Of a DNA stretch of 64,000 bases, positions 51,203 to 53,293 are shown piece after piece. Source of the stretch: Blastocatellia bacterium (lineage in GTDB: Bacteria > Acidobacteriota > Blastocatellia > Pyrinomonadales > Pyrinomonadaceae); contig PMSM01000005.1 in NCBI GenBank assembly GCA_003168335.1, positions 62,001 through 126,000 of the forward strand. The letters run 5' to 3'. Positions within the stretch are counted from its first letter, which is position 1. Each line of letters begins with the position of its first letter. The notes under the pieces were generated by a model. It did not search any database, was not told where the DNA came from, and saw only the letters and a program-made list of their open reading frames with translations. Made by a program: the position numbers and the translations under genes.

Positions 51203-51483
51203 CGGAACCGCTGAACAAGTAACGATGGTTGCGAAAGTAAGAGCCCGCGAGGAAGTCCTTGCGCCGATTCCTGACATTGTCGGCCCTGCGGGCCTCAGCT
51301 CAGAGAACCGCCCTCTGCGCAACAATCCCAAATTCTCCCGCCATCACCTTCCTCAGAGCTTCCTAAAATATTTCCCGAATGTTTCTTGTTTTGGTTTCTC
51401 TTTTGCTCCGCGCCGAAAATGCTGAGGGTTTTCTTGAGAAAAGAAAAAGAGATCGCTTTTCGAAAAATAAAACACACAAAAAA
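51203..51483. other. Upstream gap of the large RNA candidate
   Basis: No gene is seen here. The right part (51430-51483) is strikingly A-rich (aaaagaaaaaga, cgaaaaataaaacacacaaaaa) and sits directly in front of a -35 box, as an UP element does at strongly expressed genes. The left part contains small palindromes such as ccctgcgggcc. Confidence 0.55.
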
Positions 51484-51512
51484 TTGACGAGAAAAAATCT
51501 TTTAGGTATAAG
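51484..51512 (+). promoter_or_regulatory. Strong sigma70-like promoter with A-rich upstream element
   Basis: TTGACG (51484-51489), exactly 17 bases, TATAAG (51507-51512), preceded by A-tracts. Transcription should start near 51519. No open reading frame of note follows for 740 bases. Confidence 0.75.
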
Positions 51513-51518
51513 TCTCCC

Positions 51519-52062
51519 CGTCGCGGAGGTCACGGCCTTTGAGACCAGCGAAGGGATCGGCGAACAGAGTGGTGACATTCTGGGAGAGAGCAGCAGCAGA
51601 GCGGTTTGTGGTTGCTATTGACGCCCAGCGCTGAAGCCGAAAGGCTTGCTAGGGAAAGATCGAAAGGTTTTTTCCGAGCGCCCGGATAAAAACGGGTAGC
51701 ACCCTTTGGGAAGGACCCGCTGAAGGGGAGCAATGTCGCTCGACGAAAGTTGAGCCTCGTTGCCGGGAACGTAACCGGCGGTGGAGGACAGCCACCAAAA
51801 AAACTACCTAAAGGCACCACGTTCCGCAAGGAATGTGAGATTCGTGAAAGCGAGTCGAATGTCCCGCAAGGGATGTGAGGTAAGTGGAAACAGATCGCGT
51901 GCCGACCGGGAAGCATCGACCGCCGATCGCTTGTCGGAATACAAATTGGCAGCTTGTGCTTGGCCAAGCCAGGCTGCCATCTTAGAAATCACTTCGGTGG
52001 TTTATAAGACTTGAGGTTGCGCTGCTATCAGCTTCGGTTGAGAGCAGCGCAATTTCGCTTTT
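51519..52062 (+). ncRNA. Large structured non-coding RNA candidate (about 540 nt)
   Basis: This promoter-to-terminator unit has no plausible gene on either strand. It is packed with hairpins capped by GNRA or UUCG loops: AAGCC-GAAA-GGCTT (51634-51647), GCTCGAC-GAAA-GTTGAGC (51738-51755), TTCC-GCAA-GGAA (51822-51833), TCGT-GAAA-GCGA (51842-51853), GTCCC-GCAA-GGGAT (51861-51874) and AAATCAC-TTCG-GTGGTTT (51986-52003). Further stems are GGTGG/CCACC (51780-51796) and TGGCAGC/GCTGCCA (51947-51979). GATCGGCG (51555-51562) can pair with CGCCGATC (51921-51928), closing a domain of about 370 nt. I looked for hallmarks of RNase P RNA, tmRNA, SRP RNA and group II introns and did not find them. The identity is unknown. 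Confidence 0.7.
52017..52062 (+). terminator. Intrinsic terminator of the large RNA candidate
   Basis: TTGCGCTGCT (52017-52026) pairs perfectly with AGCAGCGCAA (52043-52052). Inside, TCAGC-TTCG-GTTGA extends the stem past one mismatch. A tttcgctttt tract follows. Confidence 0.8.
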
Positions 52063-52079
52063 GGGGGCCCCAAATAATC

Positions 52080-52147
52080 CTGTTTAGAGGCGGGCCACTG
52101 CCCGCCAACCTCTGCCTATCGGCGAGCGGTAGCCCGCCGCTAAACAG
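52080..52147. repeat. CTGTTTAG palindrome
   Basis: CTGTTTAG (52080) and CTAAACAG (52140) close a palindrome with inner gcgggc/gcccgc hairpins. It lies between the RNA candidate and the VOC gene; the rest of this gap is an ordinary upstream region. Confidence 0.8.
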
Positions 52148-52257
52148 TTTCTTCAATCGACCCTCCATCTCCAACTGGCTTTTCCCACCGCTCGCTGATA
52201 AAGTTTCAGCCCCTTAGACACCAATTACCATCAATCCAAATTAAGGAGAAAACCGAG

Positions 52258-53101: not shown

Positions 53102-53232
53102 TTTGGAGTGCGGCGACTTGTCGCCGCTTTGGTATGCGGAGCCTTGGCGCCGCAGCGTCTCAAAGACATCTGTCTACCTGGTCGCGACAAGTCGCGGCCT
53201 ACCAAAGCGCTGACAAGTCAGCGCACTCCAAA
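53102..53232. repeat. GGAGTGCGGCGACT palindromic repeat, copy 2 (long form)
   Basis: It has the same ends as 16372-16431 (tttggagtgcggcgact, agtcagcgcactccaaa) but with about 70 extra bases in the middle, including gtcgcgacaagtcgcgg. Confidence 0.88.
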
Positions 53233-53293
53233 TTCAGTCGTCCGCCGCGCGGACGCTTTGACCAATCGATTGCCCTCACGTACAAATGAATAA

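Follow-up and report, generated by a model that had tools for sequence, protein, structure and literature searches.

Bacteria are known to make only a handful of RNAs that exceed 400 nt and have elaborate, conserved folds. GOLLD and ROOL are known mostly from phages and from sites near tRNA genes, and the gene for OLE RNA has a neighbouring protein gene. OLE RNA forms a ribonucleoprotein complex whose precise biochemical function is not known (PMC9723947, PMC12265935), and GOLLD and ROOL have been shown by cryo-EM to form homo-oligomeric complexes (PMC12286853). Here we examine a locus in a 64,000-nucleotide stretch of DNA from a Blastocatellia bacterium (the whole stretch analysed, which we call the window). 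Judging from homologous loci, a covariance model, covariation and an excess of G-U cells, positions 51515-52062 on the plus strand are almost certainly a gene for a structured noncoding RNA of ~540 nt. Well established as an RNA gene, the locus appears to represent a new class of large structured RNA, unnamed in Rfam and so far known from one family. It is longer than 400 nt, covaries, has its own transcription unit and carries no conserved ORF, which places it with the orphan large structured noncoding RNAs, a grouping by functional likeness and not a homologous family, with transcription supported indirectly.

The gene is bounded by signals that can be read directly from the sequence. The core promoter (51484-51512, plus strand) consists of a -35 box TTGACG at 51484-51489, a 17 nt spacer and a -10 box TATAAG at 51507-51512, and is preceded by an A-rich upstream promoter element (51464-51483, plus strand; part of AAAATAAAACACACAAAAAATTGA) that is near-identical in other genera. 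This is the near-consensus promoter with A-rich upstream element that an earlier, sequence-only reading of the window had pointed out; the core promoter is kept in position and sequence in 50 homologues and stands at the same place in the homologues inspected. A strict promoter scanner lists none at 51484-51512 because TATAAG has no T at position 6. Transcription would start near 51518-51520. The RNA ends with P17, the strong terminator of the earlier reading, made of a hairpin (52013-52030/52039-52056) and a T-rich tail (together 52013-52062, plus strand). The 18 pairs of this hairpin are paired in 93% of cells and all 18 show double changes in the 50-homologue alignment; a strict terminator scanner lists none for the 52013-52056 hairpin. 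Just past the terminator, at 52079-52147, CTGTTTAG...CTAAACAG form an imperfect inverted repeat that may be a small palindromic element of the repeat type, and at 53103-53233 there is a ~130-bp imperfect inverted repeat (TTTGGAGTGCGGCGACTTGTCGCC...GCGCTGACAAGTCAGCGCACTCCAAA) that resembles a miniature transposable or REP-like element.

The upstream promoter region (51464-51487 in the window) differs by clade, with AAAATAAAACACACAAAAAnTTGA in the window's clade and TTAAAGTATTTTCTACTTGAC in many others. In the TTAAAGTATTTTCTACTTGAC form, an inverted repeat AAGTA-N5-TACTT abuts the -35 box and looks like an operator. Scanning whole genomes, we find that the window's element occurs once in its own genome, at the RNA gene (3 mismatches allowed), and that the TTAAAGTATTTTCTACTTGAC-type element occurs once each in 8 of 9 genomes, again at the RNA gene, with no match in the ninth (2 mismatches allowed). 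We therefore reject a general UP element used by other genes, since both tested elements are found only at the RNA gene. The upstream elements point to dedicated control rather than to a general strong-promoter element, and their clade-specific forms suggest that a regulator devoted to this gene, or a promoter tuned specially for it, would set the level of the RNA.

Between these boundaries the sequence folds with unusual stability. Interval 51515-52062 reaches -247.8 kcal/mol as its minimum free energy (z = -7.6), a value as low as that of 0 of 100 shuffles, and its minus strand gives z = -2.3. Evidence that this fold is kept in evolution comes from an alignment of 50 homologous sequences, in which RNAalifold proposes 104 pairs; compensatory changes occur at 78 of these. 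For a curated structure of 110 pairs, 93.5% of cells are paired, against 78.1% in shuffled and 33-43% in slid alignments; double-sided changes occur at 88 of the 110 pairs, and the covariation score is 0.523, compared with 0.229 for shuffled (reached in 0 of 500) and 0.08-0.14 for slid controls. Since shared ancestry alone can let sequences outscore simple shuffling, we wrote a phylogeny-aware test resembling R-scape, which uses a G statistic with average-product correction and a null in which inferred substitutions are redistributed along a FastTree tree. Run against all column pairs, it returns five significant pairs, four of which belong to the final structure as base pairs, while the fifth (51885/51890; 92% standard pairs) falls within the variable P12 domain. 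When the test is confined to the proposed structure, 26 of its 110 pairs reach E<=0.05, and 83 reach p<0.05 against an expectation of 5.5; this version is somewhat generous because the structure was partly chosen from the same alignment. The alignment also tells us the strand: G-U cells outnumber A-C cells by 630 to 91, and the RNA therefore lies on the plus strand. Together with the folding energy, this ratio leads us to reject an RNA on the minus strand.

As shown by comparison of the homologues, the predicted fold has multiple domains and ~17 helices (all on the plus strand), supported by covariation and displaying sequence-invariant loops. GNRA- and UUCG-type caps are seen on its stems, as the sequence-only reading had described. 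Hairpin P1 (51520-51545) has 9 pairs, with 96% of cells paired and double changes at 6. It is followed by P2 (51546-51633), a long-range stem whose strands (51546-51549/51630-51633 and 51552-51555/51624-51627) are 96-98% paired with double changes at 8 of 8 pairs, and which closes a domain holding the GUGA-capped P3 (51569-51578) and P4 (51589-51593/51612-51616). The hairpin P5 (51634-51647; AAGCC-GAAA-GGCUU) is 100% paired: its outer pairs covary, its CC-GAAA-GG cap is invariant and its apical CCGAAAGG is identical in 50 of 50 homologues. Then come four more hairpins: P6 (51653-51674), in which 3 pairs covary significantly; P7 (51678-51699), with 7 pairs, 6 of them with double changes, and a nearly invariant loop GAUAAAAA; P8 (51702-51727), with double changes at 6 of 6 pairs; and P9 (51738-51755), 96% paired, with double changes at 5 of 6.

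Next comes P10 (51762-51779), a GCCGG/CCGGC hairpin with a conserved CGUAA loop (91% paired; double changes at 3 of 5 pairs). Directly after it stands P11 (51780-51796), 100% paired and almost invariant in sequence, with 4 of 5 pairs that never vary and the consensus GGUGG-AGGAAAAG-CCACC, which runs into a highly conserved, A-rich segment read from the alignment as single-stranded (51797-51812; consensus ACAACAAAAACC). The P12 domain (51813-51903) is closed by the stem GGCAC/GUGCC (51813-51817/51899-51903; 100% paired, double changes at 4 of 5 pairs). Its interior (51818-51898) appears to hold two tandem copies of a two-hairpin unit in the window's genus; the unit is single in most other genera, and the extra stretch is partly present in two other genomes. 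P14 (51906-51937) pairs CCGG with UCGG (51906-51909/51934-51937), is 100% paired and almost invariant, and holds a candidate local hairpin (51915-51918/51924-51927) read from the alignment. P11, P14 and the A-rich strand are conserved as sequence, and covariation is therefore neutral on pairing there. The remaining hairpins are P15 (51948-51978; 94% paired, double changes at 5 of 6 pairs), whose apical part carries a conserved GUGUACAUGC in most genera and a GGCC loop in the window, and P16 (51980-52009), which has a CUUCGG cap and an apical helix that is 87% paired with double changes at 6 of 6 pairs.

One structural proposal of the earlier reading does not hold across the homologues. It had paired 51555-51562 with 51921-51928 over 8 bp, and the complementarity is indeed perfect in the window sequence, but it is not conserved: 60.5% of cells pair in the 50 homologues versus 58.9% when shuffled, and all covariation scores except one are at or below zero. 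Base 51555 pairs instead with 51624 in P2, and 51924-51927 can instead form the local hairpin with 51915-51918. We reject this long-range pairing as unconserved; its central GGC/GCC triplet is compatible at most.

How does this RNA relate to known families? Searching Rfam 15 (4227 models, including OLE, GOLLD, ROOL, HEARO, introns and SRP) returns nothing at or above the gathering threshold at 51300-52200, nor at six homologous loci. A permissive search of 51300-52200 (E<=10) gives chance matches only, the best being M23 on the opposite strand at 21.1 bits against a threshold of 41.2. Over the whole window, the gathering-threshold matches are a tRNA-Asn and an Acido-Lenti-1 RNA and nothing else. 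The latter (RF01687; 38393-38438, minus strand, 54 bits) is another orphan noncoding RNA of the phylum. Ribonuclease P RNA and tmRNA, which the earlier reading had set aside, are rejected, as is 6S RNA: the genome has its RF00010 match (242.6 bits) at G000:C1:267752-268297, its RF00023 match (150.7 bits) at C2:229969-230361 and its RF00013 match (58.3 bits) at C1:348941-349127, and a run of ARAGORN over the window is negative for tmRNA. A coding gene on either strand is rejected as well, since no ORF is conserved (the best one keeps a common start and stop in 7 of 50 homologues); Pfam has no match for any window ORF overlapping the RNA gene, in agreement with the earlier view that the interval holds no protein gene. 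No account of an RNA of this kind came up in the open-access literature. The passages found in a 2010 survey name only Acido-1 and Acido-Lenti-1 for Acidobacteria, and the phylum is absent from the main text of a 50-genome survey of 2024.

Homologues are found by blastn in 59 of 145 related genomes, and at almost all loci a profile search recovers the greater part or the whole of them. Of 119 genomes of one family, 82 have the RNA according to a covariance model of a 141-position core (window positions 51675-51812); these cover 19 of 29 genera and 53 of 69 good genomes. It is present in one copy in 80 of the 82 carriers and in two copies in 2. These two genomes have the core on separate contigs (L059 and L060 in G083; L101 and L102 in G011), which may reflect duplication or mixed assemblies. 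Across a phylum sample of 396 genomes, all 24 matches fall within the carrier family, and a sensitive search of 26 genomes with no or marginal blastn match, other families included, gives nothing credible. Scanning for a minority form of the core (with an insertion after CGTA) returns 7 matches, all in Acidobacteria MAGs, one of them labelled gp4; the carrier family is probably the Pyrinomonadaceae of Acidobacteriota group 4 (Blastocatellia). About one third of the family's genomes have no detectable copy, 16 good ones out of 69 among them, and the RNA is therefore not universally essential. The sequence-only reading had proposed an uncharacterised large noncoding RNA and had named beforehand three outcomes that would speak against it. 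With no known Rfam class matched, conservation in relatives and covariation far above background, all three came out the other way and the proposal is supported.

The genomic setting of the gene varies. Many genera have it between rpmA (L27) and obgE; in the window's clade it follows a HIT-family gene and precedes VOC-domain and transporter genes; the remaining clades have it in other settings. Its own promoter and terminator accompany it. In most of the non-carriers checked and in other families, rpmA and obgE adjoin without the RNA, and we found no divergent copies at the rpmA-obgE junction of genomes without a match. Because the neighbours vary by clade while promoter, fold and terminator stay, the RNA is read as a stand-alone, trans-acting transcript, and among the homologue loci no conserved neighbour gene suggests a partner protein.

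Taking these observations together, the explanation that we favour, with moderate confidence for the whole, is that this single-copy gene of one acidobacterial family encodes a large structured noncoding RNA that acts in trans and forms a new class. The RNA would be abundant and stable and would scaffold a ribonucleoprotein (or RNA-only) particle. The invariant sites, namely the P5 GAAA cap, the P7 GAUAAAAA loop, P11 with GGUGGAGG..AGCCACC and the ACAACAAAAACC strand, would then make tertiary contacts and bind protein, much as in OLE RNA. The scaffold mechanism is a best guess that draws on analogy with OLE and on elimination, and it carries most of the uncertainty of this explanation. More tentatively, the RNA may be the core of a machine unfamiliar from other bacteria, a catalytic or RNA-scaffolded particle of group-4 Acidobacteriota that would have no counterpart elsewhere and would be under its own promoter control element.

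It is rather unlikely, in our judgement, that the RNA is instead a trans-acting regulator that base-pairs with its targets or serves as a sponge, with A-rich strands and GGA loops binding mRNAs, the ribosome or a translational regulator. The conserved unpaired strands (ACAACAAAAACC) would suit such a role, the promoter elements exclusive to this gene look regulated, and GGA occurs in some of its hairpin loops as it does in sponges of the CsrB/RsmY type. However, the RNA is conserved over its whole fold and not in GGA loops alone, and ~75 invariant columns with several long-range stems across 500 nt are, as far as is known, rare in base-pairing regulators. A CsrA sponge in particular is rejected, since CsrA, the classical protein of GGA-motif sponges, was not found in the genome: a search with PF02599 has no match in this assembly (96.6% complete) and is positive in 3 control genomes.

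Still less probable is a large ribozyme, in which the invariant core of P10, P11 and the A-rich strand would be the active site for cleavage, ligation or another reaction. Size, an almost invariant core and GNRA caps, which commonly dock into receptors, are consistent with such an activity, but no Rfam ribozyme family matches and the alignment bears no sign of self-processing.

We give very little credence to the RNA being cargo of a mobile element or phage (similar to GOLLD or ROOL, or guide-RNA-like), an origin that the differing loci between clades would fit. Pieces of the RNA do occur in two of 2.9 million IMG/VR contigs, at 1-326 of IMGVR_UViG_3300034664_001305 (L163) and at 199-406 of IMGVR_UViG_3300048099_000016 (L164). 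Both contigs have a Pfam match to Phage_mat-A and L164 also to RNA_replicase_B; they are RNA-phage (levivirus-like) genomes. Levivirus-like phages lack a DNA stage, so both contigs must derive from RNA libraries. The pieces share ~90% identity with members of genus g9, both of their ends lie inside the RNA, and the joints sit at different, internal or terminal, points of the phage genomes. They look chimeric and are probably reverse-transcription or assembly chimeras of co-occurring RNAs; natural recombination between phage and host RNA may be the alternative. Both pieces follow the phage plus-strand orientation, which is sense for the RNA. Read as chimeras of co-occurring RNAs, they are therefore indirect evidence for sense transcription in the environment; two same-sense joints could also arise by chance, one time in four. 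Against a mobile or phage origin, blastn finds no match in 50,697 phage and 72,556 plasmid records (on which ground we reject a phage or plasmid RNA), the flanks inspected show no standout mobile-element protein, and the locus is stable within a clade.

Least probable of all is a role in cis as the leader (riboswitch or attenuator) of a downstream gene, which the intrinsic-terminator hairpin ending the RNA upstream of a gene might recall but which we reject for the varying genomic context of the RNA. The downstream gene changes by clade and in some cases lies on the other strand, homologues keep the terminator hairpin, and ~540 nt far exceeds usual leaders.

Large RNAs that so far lack a function, such as OLE, GOLLD and ROOL, are prized targets, and the RNA described here comes with ~80 natural variants, a testable secondary structure and a dedicated promoter, in soil bacteria of a family that has received little study. 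It could already be submitted to Rfam and is a good candidate for an undiscovered RNA-based component of the cell, whose three-dimensional structure and any protein partners lend themselves to direct tests. Like ribonuclease P RNA, tmRNA and 6S RNA, whose copies lie elsewhere in the genome, it is structured and single-copy and would be independently transcribed. It shares with GOLLD and ROOL a large, ornate fold and many GNRA-capped hairpins, but it matches neither Rfam model and is chromosomal, with phages and plasmids negative by blastn. OLE, which forms its ribonucleoprotein at the membrane with dedicated proteins, differs in phylum, in its Rfam model, which the window RNA does not match, and in its neighbouring protein gene, of which there is no conserved equivalent here. 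Yet OLE (~600 nt; from extremophiles of the Bacillota) is alike in size, in being a single-copy chromosomal gene of restricted taxonomic range, and in an intricate covarying structure with highly conserved nucleotide stretches.
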